The notes below the pieces were generated by a model, which did not search any database, had not been told where the DNA came from, and was given only the letters and a program-made list of their open reading frames with translations. DNA of 64,000 nt from Geothrix sp. (lineage in GTDB: Bacteria > Acidobacteriota > Holophagae > Holophagales > Holophagaceae): NCBI RefSeq assembly GCF_030219325.1, contig NZ_CP126625.1:1848857-1912856 (forward strand), given 5' to 3'. This document shows, piece after piece, positions 7,613-15,951 of this stretch; the first letter of the stretch is position 1, and the number at the start of each line of letters is the position of its first letter. The position numbers and the translations under genes were made by a program.

Positions 7613-8407
7613 CTACAGCTTCAGCTTCTTGTCGCGGATGGCTTCCTGGATCGGCACCGGGATGGTGAGTCGGCCCGGCGGGGGCGGGAGCAGCTCCTTT
7701 TTTGCTTTCGCGAGGAAGGAACATTCATCCAGCAGCATCTGGCGCAGGGTCAGGCCGGTGGTGAAGGGCTTGCGGCCCTTCTTCAGGGTGGGGATGGAAT
7801 CCCCGCCGCCGTAGAGGTAGTCCGAGGTGGCCACCTTCACCGTGGCCGCGGGGTCGATGGGGGAACCATCCTCCCAGGTGATGGTGTAGGTCACGGCCTC
7901 TGGGGTGCCCCCCACCACGGCCTTCACGCCGGAGGAGGGTTCGCCGCCGCGGCGCACGATGCCCTCCTTCACGACCTGGATGATTTCGGCCCCAGTCAGC
8001 TCGATCACCACCAGCTCGTTCTCGAAGGGCATCACCTCGAAGATGTCGGCCACCTTCAGCTGGCCCGGCCGCAGGTTGCCCCGCAGGCCGCCGGCATTGG
8101 TGATGGCGAAGCGCACCGGACTGCCCACCACGCCCTGGGCGGCCTTGCGCATCACGTCCGACACCCAGTAGCCCAGCAGGTTCTCCTCACCGCGGCGGCC
8201 CCGGAAGACCCCCAGCGGCGCCGGCACCAGGGGCAGGTCGAAGGTGGCCTTGATCTCGGCCGCCAGGGGCGCGATGACCTTCTGGATGGCCTCGTCCTCG
8301 GGGATGGTGGCGGCCACCGGGATGACCTCGGCCTTGCGGACCGGCGTCTGGGCCGCCAGACCCAGTGCAAAAAAGGAGCAGAGCAGGGCGCTACAGGGCT
8401 TCGGCAT
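7613..8407 (-). CDS. 5'-nucleotidase C-terminal domain protein
   Basis: This protein of about 264 residues has a Sec-type signal sequence (MPKPCSALLCSFFALGLAAQ). The 5_nucleotid_C domain is recognised by NLLGYWVSDVMRKA, ITNAGGLRGNL and TSDYLYGGGDS; in UshA-type enzymes this part binds the nucleoside moiety. It precedes the metallophosphatase gene by 10 bases, so the two domains of one enzyme come from separate exported proteins in reversed order. A GTG directly before the ATG is an equally possible start (8410). It overlaps the end of the upstream membrane-protein gene. The two exported chains probably assemble in the periplasm; this is an inference. Confidence 0.87.
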   Translation of the reverse strand: MPKPCSALLCSFFALGLAAQTPVRKAEVIPVAATIPEDEAIQKVIAPLAAEIKATFDLPLVPAPLGVFRGRRGEENLLGYWVSDVMRKAAQGVVGSPVRFAITNAGGLRGNLRPGQLKVADIFEVMPFENELVVIELTGAEIIQVVKEGIVRRGGEPSSGVKAVVGGTPEAVTYTITWEDGSPIDPAATVKVATSDYLYGGGDSIPTLKKGRKPFTTGLTLRQMLLDECSFLAKAKKELLPPPPGRLTIPVPIQEAIRDKKLKL

Positions 8408-9317
8408 CACGGAGCGATTCCTTCAGAGTCATGCGGACGTCCTGCACCAGGACGTCGTGGTTCCAGAACCGGGCCGCGGCACGGAGCAGCCAGCCCATCA
8501 CCCAGCCGTTGACCGCCGTGACCAGGAGCTGGAGCAGGAGGAACAGCCACACGCGGAAGGTGGTGCCGCCGCCCATGCGCCACGCCAGCAGCAGCACCAG
8601 GAAGGGTGGGAGGGCCCGCAGCGCGGCGCCGCCGATCGAGAGCAGCCCCCACTGGATGGGATGGGACCAGAGTCGCATGAAGCTGACCCCGAGGTGTGTG
8701 CGGTAGCCATGCGCCAGCCCAGCGGAGCGGCCCAGGCGGCAGAGCCACCACTGGACGTTCAGGGCCGCGACCAGGGACATCCACACCAGCGGGCGGCCGA
8801 AGAAGGCGGTCCAGCCCAGGGCGTCCAGACCGGCATTCCCGACCTTGGCGAGACCCAGATCCACCAGCCAGGCCACGAGCCCGAGCGGCACCACGCCGAT
8901 CAGCAAGGTGTCCAGGGCGCCCAGCAGCCAGGCACCCAACCGGGCCTTCTGGCCCGCGACTTCAGCCTGCATGCGCCAGCCGCACCAGAGCACGACGACC
9001 AGGCCGAGGCCGAAGAGGTGCACCGTGGGGGAGTTCGTCAGGCGGTACTGCAGGCCCCCGTTCTGCCAGAGTTCCCAGATGTCGCGGGCGCTGAGGCTCT
9101 CGCCCCAGTGGCTGGGCAGGGCGCTCCAGCCTGCGGCGCGGCGCAGGTGGCCGGCCCAGCCCAGGGCCGGGCCCAGCAGCACGAGCATCCACCCGGCCAT
9201 GATTCCCCAGCCCCAGCGGGTGAAGCCTCCGGGCAGGGCCCCGCGCAGGAAGGGCCAGGGGCCCCGGGGAGCCAGCTCCTCCTCGGTGTGAATGGTGGTG
9301 GGGCGCTCAGGTTCCAT
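8391..9317 (-). CDS. Polytopic membrane protein of unknown function
   Basis: This protein of about 308 residues has six or so hydrophobic segments spread from about residue 38 to 290, and Trp-rich loops. No catalytic or binding motif is recognisable. The ATG at 9317 (MEPERPTT) is chosen because it precedes the conserved-looking cytoplasmic leader; an ATG at 9341 would add eight residues, and neither has a good ribosome site. The end overlaps the start of the 5'-nucleotidase-domain gene by about 17 bases, so it is probably co-transcribed with the exported nucleotidase pair. It is divergent from the trp leader. Confidence 0.7.
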   Translation of the reverse strand: MEPERPTTIHTEEELAPRGPWPFLRGALPGGFTRWGWGIMAGWMLVLLGPALGWAGHLRRAAGWSALPSHWGESLSARDIWELWQNGGLQYRLTNSPTVHLFGLGLVVVLWCGWRMQAEVAGQKARLGAWLLGALDTLLIGVVPLGLVAWLVDLGLAKVGNAGLDALGWTAFFGRPLVWMSLVAALNVQWWLCRLGRSAGLAHGYRTHLGVSFMRLWSHPIQWGLLSIGGAALRALPPFLVLLLAWRMGGGTTFRVWLFLLLQLLVTAVNGWVMGWLLRAAARFWNHDVLVQDVRMTLKESLRDAEAL

Positions 9318-9351
9318 GTCCGTCCACAGGCAATCCCCCATCAAACCACAC

Positions 9352-9381
9352 TTGACAGGGCCTGGACCGATGGGGTTTCAT
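9352..9381 (+). promoter_or_regulatory. Candidate trp operon promoter
   Basis: A perfect TTGACA (9352-9357) is followed after 18 bases by TTTCAT (4 of 6 matches to TATAAT). Transcription would start near 9388, just at the leader-peptide ATG, so the leader mRNA would be leaderless or nearly so. This agrees with the lack of a ribosome site before that ATG. The -10 element is weak. Confidence 0.4.
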
Positions 9382-9388
9382 CGCTTCC

Positions 9389-9481
9389 ATGCTGCTGTCC
9401 TTCCCCATCCCCTGCCAGGGTCTCTCCTCTGAGGCTTGGTGGTGGCGTACGGGCTCGGACGGCTCCCTGTGCGAGGCCTAG
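9389..9481 (+). CDS. trpL: trp leader peptide with three tandem Trp codons
   Basis: This is a 30-codon frame from ATG 9389 to TAG 9479-9481, upstream of trpE. It begins MLLSFPIPCQ and codons 17-19 (9437-9445) are TGG TGG TGG. Tryptophan is rare, and a run of three directly before an attenuator-like pair of hairpins is the mark of ribosome-mediated attenuation. When charged tRNA-Trp is short, the ribosome stalls on these codons and leaves 9451-9459 free to pair; otherwise it runs to the stop and covers that segment. There is no clear ribosome site, which fits a leaderless transcript from the promoter proposed just upstream. Confidence 0.8.
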   Translation: MLLSFPIPCQGLSSEAWWWRTGSDGSLCEA

Positions 9482-9512
9482 CGGCCGACGCCATTCCGGA
9501 CCCTCCGAGCCC
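9451..9512 (+). promoter_or_regulatory. trp antiterminator stem
   Basis: Bases 9451-9459 (GGGCTCGGA) are exactly complementary to 9504-9512 (TCCGAGCCC). This stem uses the first five bases of the terminator's ascending arm (9508-9512), so the two structures exclude each other. The left arm lies six bases after the third Trp codon and within the translated leader. Confidence 0.7.
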
Positions 9513-9534
9513 GACCCCACGGTCGGGCTTTTTC
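9508..9534 (+). terminator. trp operon attenuator (intrinsic terminator)
   Basis: A perfect 9-bp stem AGCCCGACC (9508-9516) / GGTCGGGCT (9521-9529) with a four-base loop is followed by a T tract to 9533. It lies between the leader stop codon and trpE and has the form of an intrinsic terminator. Confidence 0.85.
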
Positions 9535-9550
9535 GTTATGGAATGAACCC

Positions 9551-10966
9551 ATGTCTGAGCAAACCAAGTCCCAGCCACCCATGAACCTCATCCGGCACCC
9601 TCTTCCCGCGGACCTGCTGACGCCCCTCGCGGCCTACCTCGCGCTGCGGTCCTCGGGGGCGAGCCTCCTGTTGGAATCCTGCGACCAGGGCGAGCGCGTC
9701 GGCCGCCACAGTTTCGTGCTCATCGAGGGGGCCAGTGAATGCCGCCTGCCCGCGCCGGCCAACGGCTGGGCCGAGGCCATCCGGACCCTGGCGGGCGCGA
9801 CGCCCACCGAGACCCTCCACGATCCGGCCGCCACGCTGCCCGTGCTGCGGGAGGTGCTCCCGGTGGGCGTGGGCTGTGCGGGCTATCTCGGCTTCGAGGC
9901 CATGGGGGCCATGGAGCCCAGCCTCCAGCTCCCCGCCAAGAACAGCCTCGGTCTGCCGGGTCTATGGGTGCGCCGCTTCGACACGGCCCTGGTCTTCGAC
10001 CACCTGCACCAGGTGGCGGAATTGCAGACCCTGGCCGCGGTTCCCGAAGCCGGCTTCAAGCGCCTGGCGGCCCTGAAGGCTCGCCTCCTGGAGGGGGCCC
10101 AGGATCCCGGCCCCGGTGGCGCGGAGCCCAGCGCCCAGGCCCAGATGACGCGCGAAGCCTACGAGGGCGCCGTGGCTGCGGCCCAGGAGCTGATCCTCGA
10201 CGGCGACATCTACCAGCTGGTGCCCAGCCAGCGCTTCCGCATCGAGGACCCGCCCCTGCCGCTGGAGGCCTACCGCCGCCTGCGCCGCCTCAACCCGAGC
10301 CCCTACGGCTACCTGCTCGAGTGGGGGGACTTCGCCCTGGTGGGCGCCTCGCCGGAGATGCTGGTGCGGGTCCAGGATGGCGAGGCGGAGACCCTGCCCA
10401 TCGCCGGCACCGTGCCCCGGGGCGCCAGTGCCGAGGAGGACGCCCGGCGCTTCGAGGCCTTGAAGCGTGATCCCAAGGAGCTGGCCGAGCACCAGATGCT
10501 GGTGGACCTGGCCCGCAACGACCTGGGTCGGGTGGCGGTGCCCGGCGGCGTGCGCGTGGAGCTGCCCCTGGCTCTCCAGCGCACCAGCCACGTGCTGCAC
10601 CTGACCACCACGGTGCGGGCAAAGCTGAAGGCGGGCGTGGATGCCCTGGACGTGCTGGCGGCCGCCTTTCCGGCGGGAACCGTCAGCGGCGCACCCAAGC
10701 TCCGGGCCTGCCAGCGCATCGCCGAGCTGGAGAGGGAGCAGCGCGGTCCCTACGGCGGCGTGCTGCTGCGGCTGGGTGCCGATGGCGTGCTCGACACGGC
10801 GCTCATCCTGCGCACGGCGGTCTATGCGGGCGGCGCCGCCCACATCCAGGCCGGAGCCGGCGTGGTGCGGGCCTCAAGGCCCGAGGCGGAGTATTTTGAG
10901 ACCCTGCACAAGCTCGGCGCCATCGCCCAGGCCCTGGGCGTGAAGCTGGAAGGGGGTGCCCGGTGA
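9551..10966 (+). CDS. trpE: Anthranilate synthase component I
   Basis: This 471-residue chorismate-binding enzyme converts chorismate to anthranilate with ammonia supplied by TrpG, the first step of tryptophan synthesis. The N-terminal domain has the LLLES motif that forms the tryptophan feedback site. The catalytic domain shows LVGASPEMLVR, PIAGTVPRG, AEHQMLVDLARNDLGRV and FPAGTVSGAPKLRA. Its length is slightly short for the family but all core motifs are present. It starts about 20 bases after the attenuator and ends in a GTGA overlap with trpG, so it is controlled by the leader. Confidence 0.97.
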   Translation: MSEQTKSQPPMNLIRHPLPADLLTPLAAYLALRSSGASLLLESCDQGERVGRHSFVLIEGASECRLPAPANGWAEAIRTLAGATPTETLHDPAATLPVLREVLPVGVGCAGYLGFEAMGAMEPSLQLPAKNSLGLPGLWVRRFDTALVFDHLHQVAELQTLAAVPEAGFKRLAALKARLLEGAQDPGPGGAEPSAQAQMTREAYEGAVAAAQELILDGDIYQLVPSQRFRIEDPPLPLEAYRRLRRLNPSPYGYLLEWGDFALVGASPEMLVRVQDGEAETLPIAGTVPRGASAEEDARRFEALKRDPKELAEHQMLVDLARNDLGRVAVPGGVRVELPLALQRTSHVLHLTTTVRAKLKAGVDALDVLAAAFPAGTVSGAPKLRACQRIAELEREQRGPYGGVLLRLGADGVLDTALILRTAVYAGGAAHIQAGAGVVRASRPEAEYFETLHKLGAIAQALGVKLEGGAR

Positions 10967-11538
10967 TATTGCTCATCGATGCCCTCGATTCCTTCACCTA
11001 CAACCTCGTCCAGGCCTTCGAGACCCTGGGCGCCGAGGTGCGCGTGATCCGCCACGATGTCATCTCCCTGGAGGAGGCGCAGGCGCTGCGGCCCGAGGCC
11101 GTGGTGCTGTCGCCGGGGCCCGGCCACCCCACGGAAAGCCCCGCCCACATGGCCCTGGCCGCTTCGGACTGGGGGGTGCCCCTGCTGGGCGTCTGCCTCG
11201 GGCACCAGGCCCTGGCCGCCGCCACCGGGGGCCGGGTCATCCGCGCCATCGAGCCTCTGCATGGCGAGGCCACGGCCCTGGAGCACGACGGCACGGGCCT
11301 GTTCAAGGATCTGCCTGCGGGCCTGCCCGTGGGCCGCTACCACAGCCTCATCGCCGAGCCTTCCACGCTGCCCGCCTGCTGGCGCGTCACCGGGCGCAGC
11401 CCCGGGGGCGAGATCATGGCCATGGCCCATCGGCAGCTGCCCCGCTGGGGCGTGCAGTTCCATCCCGAAAGCATCCTCACGCCGGACGGTCCGGCCATGC
11501 TCGCGAACTTCCTCCGCCTGGCCAAGGAATCCCGATGA
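10963..11538 (+). CDS. trpG: Anthranilate synthase component II (glutamine amidotransferase)
   Basis: This 191-residue class I glutamine amidotransferase provides ammonia to TrpE. The catalytic cysteine (C78) sits in LLGVCLGHQAL, and the His/Glu pair of the triad in WGVQFHPESI near the C terminus; the oxyanion region SPGPGHP is also present. Translation starts at GTG 10963, overlapping the trpE stop (GTGA), and ends overlapping trpD (ATGA). It is a separate gene, not fused to trpD or trpE. A secondary role in p-aminobenzoate synthesis is possible, as in some bacteria, but nothing here shows it. Confidence 0.97.
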   Translation: MILLIDALDSFTYNLVQAFETLGAEVRVIRHDVISLEEAQALRPEAVVLSPGPGHPTESPAHMALAASDWGVPLLGVCLGHQALAAATGGRVIRAIEPLHGEATALEHDGTGLFKDLPAGLPVGRYHSLIAEPSTLPACWRVTGRSPGGEIMAMAHRQLPRWGVQFHPESILTPDGPAMLANFLRLAKESR

Positions 11539-12569
11539 CGCTCCTCACGACCCACAATCCCATCCGTCCCCTGCCCGAGGCCACGGCCTCGGAGCTCATG
11601 CGCATCTTCATCGACCAGGACACGGACGCCCTCCTGGTGGGCGCCTGCCTGGCCCTGCTGGCCCAGCGCGTGCCCGAGGCCCACGAGCTGGCCGCCTTCG
11701 CCGATGCGCTCTCGGCGGTGGCCGTGCCCTTCCCGACCGTGCCCGATGGCGCCATCGATGTGGTCGGGACGGGTGGCGATGGCGCCTCCACCGCCAACCT
11801 CAGCACCCTGTCGGCCCTGCTGCTGCCCCGTTTCGGCGTGCCCGTGGTTAAGCACGGCAACCGCGCCGCCACCGGCGTCTGCGGCAGCGCCGACCTCATG
11901 GAGGCGCTGGGCTACGACCTCTCCCGGCCCATCTCCGACCTTGAGAAGGATTTGGCCACCCGCCACTTCGCCTTCCTCTTCGCCCCGGCCTATCATCCGC
12001 TGCTGGGTCGTCTGCGGGAGATCCGCAAGCGCCTGGGCATCCCCACCATCTTCAACCTGCTGGGTCCCCTCCTGAACCCCGGCCAGCCCCCGCTGCAGCT
12101 GCTGGGCGTGGCCCGGGAGGAGCTGCTGGCGCCCATGGCCGGCGCCCTGGAGCGCCGCACGAGCCTGCGCCGGGCCTTCGTCATCCACGGCAAGGACGCG
12201 GAAGGGAAGGGGTTGGACGAGGCCTCCATCGAGGGACCCACCTTGATCCTGGCGGTGGTCGAGGGGCGCGTGGGAGCGTCCCAGGTGCTGGTGCCACGGG
12301 AGCTTGGCCTCGCAGCACCACCACGGAATGCCCTGCGGGTGGTGGATCGGGCGGAGGCGCTCGCCGTGGCCAGGGGCCTCTTCGCGGGCGCCGCCCACGC
12401 GGACTTCCGCCCCGCCGTGGCCGATGCGGTGGCCCTCCAGGCCGCTCTGGGCCTCCACCTGCACCGGCAGGCGGGGCTGGAAGGACTGGCCGACACGCTC
12501 AGAGAGACCCGGGCCCAGATCGACCGGGGCTTCCCGCCGCCCTTCGCCGCCCCGGAGGTGCAGCCATGA
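11535..12569 (+). CDS. trpD: Anthranilate phosphoribosyltransferase
   Basis: This 344-residue enzyme transfers the phosphoribosyl group of PRPP to anthranilate. The family signatures are VVGTGGDGASTANLST (PRPP and magnesium binding), KHGNRAATGVCGSADL and the N-terminal helical subdomain. The open frame extends far upstream, but that part overlaps trpG; the ATG at 11535 overlaps the trpG stop. The stop at 12567-12569 overlaps trpC by four bases. Confidence 0.96.
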   Translation: MTLLTTHNPIRPLPEATASELMRIFIDQDTDALLVGACLALLAQRVPEAHELAAFADALSAVAVPFPTVPDGAIDVVGTGGDGASTANLSTLSALLLPRFGVPVVKHGNRAATGVCGSADLMEALGYDLSRPISDLEKDLATRHFAFLFAPAYHPLLGRLREIRKRLGIPTIFNLLGPLLNPGQPPLQLLGVAREELLAPMAGALERRTSLRRAFVIHGKDAEGKGLDEASIEGPTLILAVVEGRVGASQVLVPRELGLAAPPRNALRVVDRAEALAVARGLFAGAAHADFRPAVADAVALQAALGLHLHRQAGLEGLADTLRETRAQIDRGFPPPFAAPEVQP

Positions 12570-13390
12570 GCGGGCTGCCGGATCCGGCCAGCCTCGTCCA
12601 TGGGACCGGCCTGGGGTCGCGCTCCCACCTGCAGCGGGTGCTGGTCTCGGAGCTGGCCCGACTGGCCACGCTGGGTGATCCCGCCGCGCCGAGGCGCGCC
12701 CGACTGGTCGAGCCCGGCCCCTTCGAGGCAGCGCTGCGGCGCGAGGCCCGGGAGCGCGGCGGCGCGGTCATCGCCGAGTTCAAGCAGGCCTCGCCCTCGC
12801 TGGGGCCCTTCGCCATGGGCACGCCCCTGCTGGCGCAGCTCCGGGCCTACCGCGAAGGGGGCGCCGCTGCCTTCTCGATCCTGGCGGAGCCGGCCTATTT
12901 CAAGGGCTCGGTGGACCACCTCAAGGCCGCCTCGGAGCTGAAGCAGCCCCGGCTCTACAAGGGCTTCGTGATCGCCGAGGCCCAGCTGGCCGAAGCGGAA
13001 ACCAGTGGCGCCGAGGCGGTGCTGCTCATCGCCCGGGTGCTGAAGGAACACACCGCGGCTTTCGCCGGGGCGGCGCGGGCGCGGGGCCTCGAACCCCTCG
13101 TGGAACTGCACGACATGACCGAGGTGGGCTTTGCCCAGGCCGCCGAGGCCCGCCTGGTGGGCATCAACGCGCGGGACCTCTCCACCTTCAACCTCGGCGT
13201 GCCCACCGCGGAGCCGCTGCGGCGGGTCTTTCCCGAGGCGGTGCTGATCCGGGAATCCGGCCTGGCCACGCCCGAGGATGCCCGGGCGGCCCTGCGGGCG
13301 GGCTTCGATGCCGTCCTCATCGGCGAAGCCCTCATGCGCAGTCCCGATCCCCGCGACTTCCTCAGCCGCATCCTGGCGGGCCTGCGATGA
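12566..13390 (+). CDS. trpC: Indole-3-glycerol phosphate synthase
   Basis: This 274-residue TIM-barrel enzyme closes the indole ring from CdRP. It shows the catalytic lysine strand VIAEFKQASPSLG, the second strand YKGFVIAEAQ, GINARDLSTF and LIRESGLATPEDA, all typical of TrpC. It is a single-function protein with trpF as the next gene. The start overlaps trpD and the stop overlaps trpF, each as ATGA. Confidence 0.96.
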   Translation: MSGLPDPASLVHGTGLGSRSHLQRVLVSELARLATLGDPAAPRRARLVEPGPFEAALRREARERGGAVIAEFKQASPSLGPFAMGTPLLAQLRAYREGGAAAFSILAEPAYFKGSVDHLKAASELKQPRLYKGFVIAEAQLAEAETSGAEAVLLIARVLKEHTAAFAGAARARGLEPLVELHDMTEVGFAQAAEARLVGINARDLSTFNLGVPTAEPLRRVFPEAVLIRESGLATPEDARAALRAGFDAVLIGEALMRSPDPRDFLSRILAGLR

Positions 13391-14007
13391 GCGCCCTCGC
13401 CAAGGTCTGCGGTCTGGTGCGCCCCGAGGATGCGGCCTTCGCCGCGGGGCAGGGGGCCGACCTGCTGGGCTTCGTGTTCCATGAGCCCAGCCCCCGTAAC
13501 TGCGCCGATCTGACCGTGGCCGCGCCCCATCTGGACCGCGCGGTGCTGGTGATGGTGGCGCAGCATGCTGAAGCGATCCTCGCCACGGCCCGGCGTCACG
13601 GCTTTCAGAAGGTCCAGCCCTACCTTCCCGCGGTCGCCCGGGAAGCCGGCGTCCGCCTGCTGCGTGAGGCGGGCCTCCAGGTCCTGCTGCCCTGGCCCGA
13701 TGAACTGGACCAGGCCCCCGTGTCGGCGGATCTCTACCTCTGGGAGTCCAGCCCCCAGGTCACCGGCGTGGCCGGCGGCTCCGGGATGGGCCATGCCATG
13801 GCCCATCCCCCGCCGGGGCCCTTCCTGCTGGCCGGTGGACTCGACGCCACGAACCTGCGGGAGCGGGTGCAGGGCCTGCCGGCGCCGGTGCGCAAACGCT
13901 TCCTCGGCGTGGACGCTGCCAGCCGCCTCGAGGCTTCGCCGGGCGAGAAGGACCCCTCGAAAGTCTCCGCCTTCATCCTTGCCGCTCACGCCCTGGAGCA
14001 CCCATGA
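13387..14007 (+). CDS. trpF: Phosphoribosylanthranilate isomerase
   Basis: This 206-residue TIM-barrel isomerase catalyses the Amadori rearrangement before TrpC. Seen motifs are the N-terminal AKVCGLVRPEDA (catalytic Cys), LLGFVFHEPSPRN, LLAGGLDATNL and GVDAASRLEASPGEKD. The strand that usually reads VQLHG is VQPY here, a small divergence. The gene overlaps both neighbours by ATGA. Confidence 0.93.
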   Translation: MSALAKVCGLVRPEDAAFAAGQGADLLGFVFHEPSPRNCADLTVAAPHLDRAVLVMVAQHAEAILATARRHGFQKVQPYLPAVAREAGVRLLREAGLQVLLPWPDELDQAPVSADLYLWESSPQVTGVAGGSGMGHAMAHPPPGPFLLAGGLDATNLRERVQGLPAPVRKRFLGVDAASRLEASPGEKDPSKVSAFILAAHALEHP

Positions 14008-15188
14008 CCGAAACCTTCAGCCTGGTCTCCCGCTTCGGCACCCAGGGACTCGGCGGCTGCTACGCGCCCGAGACCCTCATGCAGCCGCTCCTCGACCTGG
14101 AGTCCGCCTTCCGTTCGGCCCTGGCCGACCCGGCTTTCCAGGTGGAACTCAAAGGCGAGCTGCGCCACTTCGTGGGCCGGCCCACGCCACTGACGCCCGC
14201 GCCGCGACTGGCCGCGAAGCTGGGCCTGCGGGCCCTCTTCCTCAAGCGCGAGGACCTCACCCACACCGGCGCCCACAAGATCAACAACGCCCTGGCCCAG
14301 GCCATCCTGGCCCGGCGCATGAGCAAGACCGAAATCATCGCCGAGACCGGCGCGGGCCAGCATGGCGTGGCCACGGCAGCGGCTTGCGCGCGGCTGGGCC
14401 TGAGCTGCACGGTCTACATGGGCGTCACCGACATGGCCCGCCAGGCACCGAACGTGGCCCGCATGCGGCTCTTCGGCACGAAGGTGGTGCCCGTGGAAGC
14501 GGGACAGGGCACCCTCAAGGAGGCCGTGAACGAGGCCCTGCGCGCCTGGGCCGGCCGCTGCGACCAGGCCCACTACATTCTCGGCTCCGCTTTGGGACCC
14601 CATCCCTTCCCCACGCTGGTGCGCAGCTTCCAGACCGTCATCGGCGAGGAGGCCCGGGCCCAGGTGCTGGAGCAGTCCGGAGCGCTTCCTGAAGTGGTCC
14701 TGGCCTGCGCGGGCGGAGGCAGCAATGGCCTCGGCCTGCTGGTGCCCTTCCTCGGCGATGCCCTGCGCCGCGTGGCGGTGGAGGCTGGCGGTCACGGCCA
14801 GGCCCTCGGCGAACACGCGGCGCGGCTCGATGGCGGCCGCATGGGCGTCCTTCATGGGTGCAAAACCCTGCTGCTGCAGGACGACCACGGCCACACGGCG
14901 GAGACTGCCAGCATCAGCGCCGGCCTGGACTACCCGGCCCTGGGGCCCGAGCTGGCGGCCCTGGCCCTCGACGGGAAAGTCGAAGTACGCCGGGCCTCGG
15001 ATGACGAGGCCCTCGTGGGCGCCCGGCAGCTCTGCGAAGCCGAAGGCATCCTGCCCGCCCTGGAGAGCAGCCACGCCCTGGCCCTGCTGCCCGCGCTCGC
15101 CGCGGAGGGCGTCGCCACCGTGCTGCTGGGACTCAGCGGCCGCGGCGACAAGGACCTGTCCACCTATCAGTCGCGTCTGGGGATCTGA
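14004..15188 (+). CDS. trpB: Tryptophan synthase beta subunit
   Basis: This 394-residue PLP enzyme joins indole and serine. The PLP lysine K92 lies in THTGAHKINN, the catalytic Glu in AETGAGQHG, and the phosphate-binding loop in CAGGGSNGLG. C-terminal motifs ALESSHALA and LSGRGDKDLSTY complete the family pattern (TrpB1 type, the partner of TrpA). Its start overlaps trpF; one base separates its stop from the trpA ATG. Confidence 0.98.
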   Translation: MTETFSLVSRFGTQGLGGCYAPETLMQPLLDLESAFRSALADPAFQVELKGELRHFVGRPTPLTPAPRLAAKLGLRALFLKREDLTHTGAHKINNALAQAILARRMSKTEIIAETGAGQHGVATAAACARLGLSCTVYMGVTDMARQAPNVARMRLFGTKVVPVEAGQGTLKEAVNEALRAWAGRCDQAHYILGSALGPHPFPTLVRSFQTVIGEEARAQVLEQSGALPEVVLACAGGGSNGLGLLVPFLGDALRRVAVEAGGHGQALGEHAARLDGGRMGVLHGCKTLLLQDDHGHTAETASISAGLDYPALGPELAALALDGKVEVRRASDDEALVGARQLCEAEGILPALESSHALALLPALAAEGVATVLLGLSGRGDKDLSTYQSRLGI

Positions 15189-15189
15189 C

Positions 15190-15951
15190 ATGAGCCTGAA
15201 TCCACTGCTGCCCTTCCTCATGGCCGGCGACCCCTCGATGGAGGCCTTGCCCCACCTTCTCTCGGAAGCCAAGGCCCTCGGTCTCGAAGCCCTCGAACTG
15301 GGCCTGCCCCACTCCGATCCCATCGCCGATGGCCCCGTGCTGCAGGCGGCGGCCCAGCGTGCCATCGGCCGCGGTGCGACGCCGCTGCGGGTGCTGGAGG
15401 CCCTGGCGGGGATCACGGACAGTCCCGACGTGATCCTCTTCACCTACCTCAATCCCCTGCTGCAGATCGGTGCCGGGCGGCTGCGGGCCCTGCTGGCGCC
15501 GACGCCCGTGAAGGCGCTGCTCGTGGTGGACCTGCCCTTCGGGGAGGAACCCATCTTCGAGGCGGACCTGCGCGCCGCGGGCTATCCCATGGTGCCCCTG
15601 CTGGCCCCGACCACCACCCTGGAGCGGGCCCGGCAGATCCTGGTGGAGCGCCCTGATCCCGGGCCGGACGCCGCCTTCGCCCAGCGCTTCGCCTACGTGG
15701 TGGCCCGGCTTGGCGTCACCGGTACCGGGCAGGCCATGGACATGGGACCCGTGTCGGCGCGCGTCCAGCAGCTTCGGACTTTTTCGGACCGTCCACTGGC
15801 CGTGGGCTTCGGCCTGTCGGACCCGCAGAGCCTGGCGCGGGTGCGCTTCCTGGGTGCCACGCCGGTCATCGGCTCCGCCCTGGTGCAGGAACTGGCCGAG
15901 GGCCAAAGCCTCCGCGCCGCCCTGTCGCCGCGCATGGTTGGTGATGCCTAG
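15190..15951 (+). CDS. trpA: Tryptophan synthase alpha subunit
   Basis: This 253-residue TIM-barrel enzyme cleaves indole-3-glycerol phosphate to indole and channels it to TrpB. The catalytic Glu (E36 in LEALELGLP) and Asp (D47 in SDPIADGP) are present, as is the LFTYLNPLL strand and the GFGLSDPQS phosphate site. It is the last gene of the operon; no clear intrinsic terminator follows before fadL. Confidence 0.95.
   Translation: MSLNPLLPFLMAGDPSMEALPHLLSEAKALGLEALELGLPHSDPIADGPVLQAAAQRAIGRGATPLRVLEALAGITDSPDVILFTYLNPLLQIGAGRLRALLAPTPVKALLVVDLPFGEEPIFEADLRAAGYPMVPLLAPTTTLERARQILVERPDPGPDAAFAQRFAYVVARLGVTGTGQAMDMGPVSARVQQLRTFSDRPLAVGFGLSDPQSLARVRFLGATPVIGSALVQELAEGQSLRAALSPRMVGDA

Follow-up and report, generated by a model that had tools for sequence, protein, structure and literature searches.

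A predicted ribosome-mediated attenuator of the trp operon in Geothrix and other Holophagaceae, with homologous copies in two other phyla

The seven-gene run trpEGDCFBA at 9551–15951 of a Geothrix genome is very probably controlled by a ribosome-mediated transcription attenuator that lies immediately upstream of it. This reading comes from the sequence of the window (the whole stretch of 64,000 nucleotides that was analysed) and from its relatives. The signal would be the charging of tRNA-Trp. The switch itself is of a familiar type, found where it would not be expected; comparative evidence supports it well, and it may have been predicted computationally before.

The features of the leader and of the operon are collected in Table 1. 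An earlier note on this DNA had described a leader with a WWW codon run, a 9-bp stem and a terminator that excludes this stem, and direct reading bears out the positions of all of them. GGGCTCGGA at 9451–9459 and TCCGAGCCC at 9504–9512 are perfectly complementary. The antiterminator and terminator stems have nt 9507–9512 in common and are hence mutually exclusive. A scan of 9001–9900 found a single terminator-like site, where shuffled sequences give a mean of 0.1. By script, 14 terminator-like sites occur in the window on both strands, and only that of the attenuator follows a short reading frame with a run of regulatory codons. The tripeptide-coding run by itself was rejected as evidence, since the window is rich in TGGTGGTGG, with 9 occurrences on both strands vs 0.75 expected from dinucleotide shuffles.

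Table 1. Positions of the leader elements, the trp genes and the neighbouring reading frame in the window
Feature	Position	Strand	Remarks
Predicted -35 hexamer TTGACA	9352–9357	+	same TTGACA 29–33 nt before leader ATG in 61/61 Geothrix-type leaders
Predicted -10 hexamer TTTCAT, weak	9376–9381	+	spacer 18; 7 nt before ATG
Leader ORF (trpL-like)	9389–9481	+	30 codons, stop TAG; translation MLLSFPIPCQGLSSEAWWWRTGSDGSLCEA*
Strand 1 (GCTGTCC)	9394–9400	+	pairs with 9457–9463; covariation
Small hairpin 5′ arm, upstream of Trp codons	9420–9424	+	partner 9431–9435; 96.1% paired
Small hairpin 3′ arm	9431–9435	+	partner 9420–9424
Regulatory Trp codons TGG TGG TGG	9437–9445	+	2 or 3 Trp codons in 46/46 Geothrix leaders
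Strand 2, antiterminator 5′ arm (GGGCTCGGA)	9451–9459	+	97.6% paired
Part of strand 2 pairing with strand 1	9457–9463	+	3-nt overlap with antiterminator arm
Leader stop codon	9479–9481	+	within antiterminator hairpin
Strand 3 (TCCGAGCCC), antiterminator 3′ arm and terminator 5′ arm	9504–9512	+	pairing, covariation
Intrinsic terminator hairpin	9507–9530	+	T tract 9529–9533
trpE	9551–10966	+	best family NCBIfam trpE_most, 401 bits, E 6e-120; under its cut-off of 517.7
trpG	10963–11538	+	TIGR00566, over cut-off
trpD	11535–12569	+	TIGR01245, over cut-off
trpC	12566–13390	+	TrpC models best, E 2e-56; under cut-off
trpF	13387–14007	+	TrpF models best, E 2e-20; under cut-off
trpB	14004–15188	+	TIGR00263, over cut-off
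trpA	15190–15951	+	TIGR00262, over cut-off
Divergent reading frame left of operon	8391–9344	-	308-aa protein at 8394–9317

The genome around the window is a single contig of 3.73 Mb. The earlier note had reasoned for the case that the organism is an acidobacterium; the host does belong to Acidobacteriota, with Geothrix and other Holophagaceae as its closest named relatives. Its TrpE is 95% identical to that of Holophagaceae bacterium MS_R2_30, and 83–88% identical to those of G. limicola, G. paludis, G. terrae and G. fermentans. Only one strong copy of the attenuator is found in the genome (168 bits, the next match 22.5). The ilvB gene of this genome was considered as a site for a branched-chain leader and dropped, as it lies close behind another frame with no leader or terminator seen. 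The reading frame to the left of the operon is divergent, and therefore the terminator at 9507–9530 is not the end of that gene. Its 308-aa protein has no NCBIfam match; relatives with 45–48% identity, partial at the ends of their loci, are neighbours of the trp operon in L273 and L274, which belong to two further Holophagaceae genera.

The leader is conserved throughout the genus. trpE was found in 46 of the 47 Geothrix genomes searched, the one without it being 58% complete, and all 46 carry a leader ORF and a terminator upstream of trpE. The ATG is invariant and the frame is kept in every one of them, with a single 3-nt insertion as the sole indel within the ORF; length differences of 1 nt are confined to the region after the leader stop. 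The distance from this stop to the 3′ arm of the terminator is 43, 42 and 44 nt in 37, 6 and 3 leaders, respectively, and the stop itself is TAG in 33, TGA in 12 and TAA in 1. All 10 terminator pairs are formed in 46/46 leaders. A lack of conserved Trp codons in relatives had been named in the earlier note as grounds for giving up its reading, and the Trp codons are conserved. As a block they stand; the WWW triplet is not invariant, for three Trp codons are present in 24 of the 46 leaders and two in the other 22.

The same holds for the family. A TrpE match was obtained in 61 of 77 Holophagaceae genomes, and a Trp-rich leader followed by a terminator precedes trpE in 61/61 (46 Geothrix and 15 others). 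The analysis excludes a 62nd Holophagaceae genome (G071), where TrpE matches in part, and L178, a locus that starts within trpE. The upstream regions were parsed by script in 59 cases and placed by hand in two (L052 and L055), the terminator of L055 having an interrupted T tract. These two are absent from the 46-row alignment, from a further alignment of 22 sequences chosen out of the 59, and from the 59-leader shuffle test; the starts of L030 and L050 were shifted by hand to an earlier in-frame ATG. The eight most distant leaders come from three other genera with TrpE only 40–44% identical. Their peptides are unrelated (WNWSWWPQ, AWWWQ, AWRWWPN), and the Trp codons, the stop-enclosing hairpin and the terminator are retained. 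Two loci of a distant Holophagaceae genus (g9), L266 and L272, have a trp operon of apparently mixed descent, in which trpC-F-B-A are like those of Geothrix (55–79%) but trpE-G-D are only 42–51% identical.

Pairing between strands 2 and 3 is maintained across these leaders. In the 46 Geothrix sequences 97.6% of the antiterminator cells are paired, against at most 59.7% when the partner is slid along. The paired substitutions that the earlier note had proposed to look for are present: one antiterminator pair occurs as CG in 33, UA in 7 and UG in 6 leaders. Three of five measures beat the shuffles, with one covarying pair; the percentage paired, the number of covarying cells and the covariation score lie above all 500 shuffles, while for two counts, covarying pairs and pair types, 460/500 shuffles were as high. 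On a TrpE tree of 39 of the 40 named Geothrix loci, the window and two outgroup rows (the truncated L159 was dropped), the G/A state in strand 3 changed at least five times and the C/T state in strand 2 at least six times. The A in strand 3 always occurs with the T in strand 2 (7/7) and never with C in the 40 Geothrix rows; a tree-based sign test has just two independent pairs on supported branches. Since the C to T change in strand 2 alters the peptide (Ser to Leu), it is the RNA that is kept. In single sequences, no more than 3 of 200 shuffles equalled or exceeded the pairing of strands 2 and 3 in 45/46 Geothrix leaders, as against 0–78 of 200 in 13 more distant ones. The small hairpin upstream of the Trp codons shows covariation as well, one of its pairs occurring as UA20/UG20/CG5. 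A pairing of the Trp codons with 9488–9495 was rejected, with 88.7% paired and 172/500 shuffles as high.

A perfect TTGACA stands 29–33 nt before the ATG in all 61 Geothrix-type leaders (46 from Geothrix, 7 from three other Holophagaceae genera and 8 foreign copies described below), most often at 31 nt (44 leaders); in 39/61 a TTTCAT comes next, with a spacer of 18. From this placement of TTGACA the transcript probably begins at or adjacent to the ATG, so that the leader mRNA may be leaderless. A start of transcription downstream of 9445, which the earlier note had seen as fatal to its proposal, is at odds with a conserved TTGACA that sits upstream of the ORF. The hexamer is absent from the eight distant Holophagaceae leaders, and a sigma-70 consensus scan found no promoter site.

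The switch may work as follows, and we consider this exact wiring somewhat more probable than not. Transcription is predicted to begin at the leader ATG. When charged tRNA-Trp is scarce, the ribosome would stall at the Trp codons, in the loop between strands 1 and 2, and block helix 1:2, so that strand 2 could join strand 3; with helix 2:3 formed there would be no terminator, and trpE to trpA would be transcribed. When Trp is plentiful, the ribosome would pass strand 2 and reach the stop codon inside the 2:3 hairpin. There it would wedge strands 2 and 3 apart, and strand 1 could close on strand 2 behind it. The terminator would then halt transcription about 20 nt before trpE. The sequences show the anatomy, its conservation, the covariation of helix 2:3 and, within Geothrix, of helix 1:2, and the mutual exclusion; we infer the stalling, the wedge action, the role of helix 1:2 and the leaderless start. 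Folds in which the ribosome acts as a barrier reproduce the expected switch. When this barrier stands at the first Trp codon, the strand-2 and strand-3 regions form a mean of 22.7 pairs in the 46 Geothrix leaders, 19.3 in the 15 further leaders of this operon type and 20.4 in the 8 distant ones. With the barrier at the stop, the strand-1 and strand-2 regions form 11.3, 9.5 and 9.7 pairs in the same three sets; the loss of helix 2:3 under this barrier arises by construction, and masking the bases instead leaves a mean of 11.4 pairs in Geothrix.

Helix 1:2 is where the proposed wiring parts from a simpler one of the same class, in which no functional 1:2 exists, the position of a ribosome on or beyond strand 2 decides, and untranslated RNA reads through. 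Folding speaks for the simpler wiring, for the unbound Geothrix RNA at equilibrium favors 2:3 over 1:2 (mean 23.5 vs 2.0 pairs), and from this preference a default termination without translation, as in E. coli, is not predicted. Single-sequence tests of 1:2 are also mostly not significant (p 0.02–0.9). Fisher combinations over hand-chosen groups gave 0.028 (8 representatives of Geothrix), 0.094 (8 further leaders of the Geothrix type) and 0.015 (5 distant leaders); a test restricted to the helix core covered 29 of 69 leaders, and the duplex energies, whole-segment or core-restricted, were mostly uninformative. The alignment argues the other way. Within Geothrix, 97.8% of the cells of helix 1:2 (315/322) are paired, against at most 55.9% when slid. 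Two pairs have changes on both sides, and 0–1 of 500 shuffles were as high per measure. Moreover, substitutions in strand 1 change amino acids yet preserve the pair. Taken with this covariation, the simpler wiring is the less probable one, and we regard it as rather unlikely.

Readings outside this class fare worse. The terminator might answer to another signal, a T-box, a Trp-binding riboswitch or a TRAP-like protein, the Trp codons being incidental. No point in support of this was found. Only tRNAs reach the Rfam gathering score within the window, no T-box or riboswitch appears up to E 10 in 9300–9600, and the Trp block and the frame are conserved. Only four GAG/UAG triplets were counted by eye in the leader, fewer than TRAP would need. 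Control by such a signal is thus very improbable. A main action in trans of the short terminated RNA or of the leader peptide, like that reported for rnTrpL and peTrpL of S. meliloti, is hardly more credible and likewise very improbable; it can draw on the predicted leaderless start, a likeness to S. meliloti as described in PMC7298713. Against it, the peptide appears unprotected. Mean entropy is 0.46 at third codon positions vs 0.59 at first and 0.68 at second positions (permutation p 0.92), and with third positions no more variable, selection seemingly acts on the RNA and the frame, not on the peptide. A trans-acting peptide as the main function was rejected, there being no sign of selection at the peptide level. 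A ribosome-mediated attenuator remains the preferred reading.

How far this attenuator follows the known ones was judged on a panel of seven E. coli leaders. The earlier note had called it the design of enterobacterial trp leaders. This stands for the short ORF with Trp codons upstream of trpE and for the antiterminator and terminator that exclude each other through a common strand, as in E. coli trpL. It does not stand for the layout, because the stop codon of the Geothrix leader comes after strand 2. In E. coli trpL the stop lies before strand 2 and none of the 14 antiterminator pairs encloses it, whereas in the Geothrix type it is enclosed; the last Trp codon is 12 nt from the stop in the former and 33–39 nt in the latter. 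The predicted pairs around the stop number 13 or more (median 22) in 61/61 Geothrix-type leaders, and at least 20 in 8/8 distant leaders. By the same count, which takes one minimum-energy fold for each segment, the segments being delimited by a simple rule, E. coli leuL (17/17 pairs) and ilvL (20/21) enclose their stops as the Geothrix type does, and thrL (9/15), ivbL (10/22) and hisL (12/31) do so less cleanly. Neither trpL nor pheL has the stop-in-hairpin layout. A stop inside the antiterminator was therefore rejected as a new layout, being present in leuL, ilvL and thrL, which serve other amino acids and operons. The Geothrix leader is a trp attenuator with a layout of the leu/ilv/thr type.

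A leader with Trp codons on a leaderless transcript also has precedent, in S. meliloti trpL and Streptomyces lividans trpL1 (MFAHSTRNWWWTAHPAAH), both from other phyla than Geothrix, as reported in PMC7298713 and PMC8079986. The predicted leaderless start and the stop-in-hairpin layout thus both have precedents. The Rfam family RF00513 (Trp_leader), which scores 93.1 bits on an E. coli control, has no match up to E 10 in 9300–9600, up to E 1 in L048–L062, or up to E 0.1 in L002, L171, L172, L270 and L271.

Outside Holophagaceae, the mechanism appears scattered in the sampled phylum, while it is consistent within the family, as judged from upstream sequences. In 60 upstream regions of other acidobacterial families, hand-picked at mostly one or two per family (54 among the phylum matches listed over the model cut-off and 6 from a class list), a Trp leader and a terminator precede trpE in 9, from 7 families. 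Seven of these were identified by script (L093, L106, L108, L115, L116, L117 and L122); in L065 and L090 the terminator was seen by eye. In the other 51 of the 60 the two do not occur together, some having a short ORF with two Trp codons and no terminator. Such scattered leaders form a natural series for asking whether switches of this kind arise repeatedly. Among the literature matches listed, titles and abstracts mention no trp leader attenuator in Acidobacteriota; a comparative survey of attenuators of this kind, by Lopatovskaya et al. in 2010 (PubMed 20198868), may include cases.

Leaders rich in both Tyr and Trp lie upstream of trpE in L117 (family f40), L093 (f35) and L090 (f9), with the sequences YWYYWYWYAQRVGR, HPRYYYWWYMRVGL and HPYYTYYWWFKRVGL. 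The leader of L117 opens with codons that restate the 5′ arm of the terminator (GACCCACCTGT), so it seems to have a built-in strand 1 that resembles strand 3 and could pair with strand 2. Three MAGs titled Thermoleophilia and Actinomycetota (L179, L180 and L190) have a leader ending in AWWWLMSGRDPVR and a terminator before trpE. A Melioribacteraceae MAG (L199) carries a WWWW ORF upstream of trpE (KNWWWWHMDSRELSVE), for which the scan found no terminator.

Homologous copies of the operon also occur in other phyla. The nearest TrpE outside Holophagaceae, 62–67% identical, are in six Lysobacterales-like and two Opitutia genomes. The former (L166–L171) are titled Lysobacter, Lysobacteraceae or Lysobacterales, two of them only Proteobacteria, and include Lysobacter silvestris AM20-91 and Lysobacteraceae bacterium CU05-9, neither labelled as a MAG; the latter are L172 and L175, one titled Opitutaceae. 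A homologous attenuator was found in 8/8 of these copies. They share with Geothrix the promoter spacing, the Trp leader, the GGCTCGG/CCGAGCC antiterminator and the terminator, and differ in their leader peptides (AWWWRRGSGDSPGA; WAWWWHSGSEKATRR). From trpE to trpA the identity is 53–76% in L. silvestris and 57–78% in L276, an Opitutaceae stretch that gave no match to trpF. Sampling each of the two orders showed a Geothrix-type TrpE in the seed genome only: 1/121 in one (116 with any match) and 1/103 in the other (63 with any match), the remaining TrpE matches in both being about 36–46% identical. The Geothrix-type operon forms one clade (100/100), apart from the native TrpE of the same two orders.

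The straightforward reading of these sequences is that the operon and its attenuator were transferred across phyla together. As to direction, transfer was perhaps out of Holophagaceae. The Lysobacterales copies of TrpE group beside a Holophagaceae MAG, L164, with a support of 92 in one tree and 88/80 in a second. This grouping depends on a single MAG contig, and mis-binning of L164 is possible, since two of the Lysobacterales-like MAGs belong to its isolate series (SZAS). For the Opitutia copies, the first TrpE tree gives a place within Holophagaceae (91), which the second does not resolve. By the AU test, a tree that sets Holophagaceae to one side is not rejected (p 0.054), nor is one that does this with the eight foreign copies (p 0.084).

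We tentatively propose, at rather less than even confidence, that the trp operon and its leaderless attenuator form a self-contained regulated unit with its origin in Holophagaceae (Acidobacteriota), and that Lysobacterales (Gammaproteobacteria) and Opitutia (Verrucomicrobiota) received it from there in at least two exports. The switch may have been kept because it needs only a ribosome, tRNA-Trp and RNA polymerase. This history across phyla is the most interesting part of the finding. If operon and transcriptional switch made the move between phyla as one, it becomes feasible to ask how portable gene regulation is.
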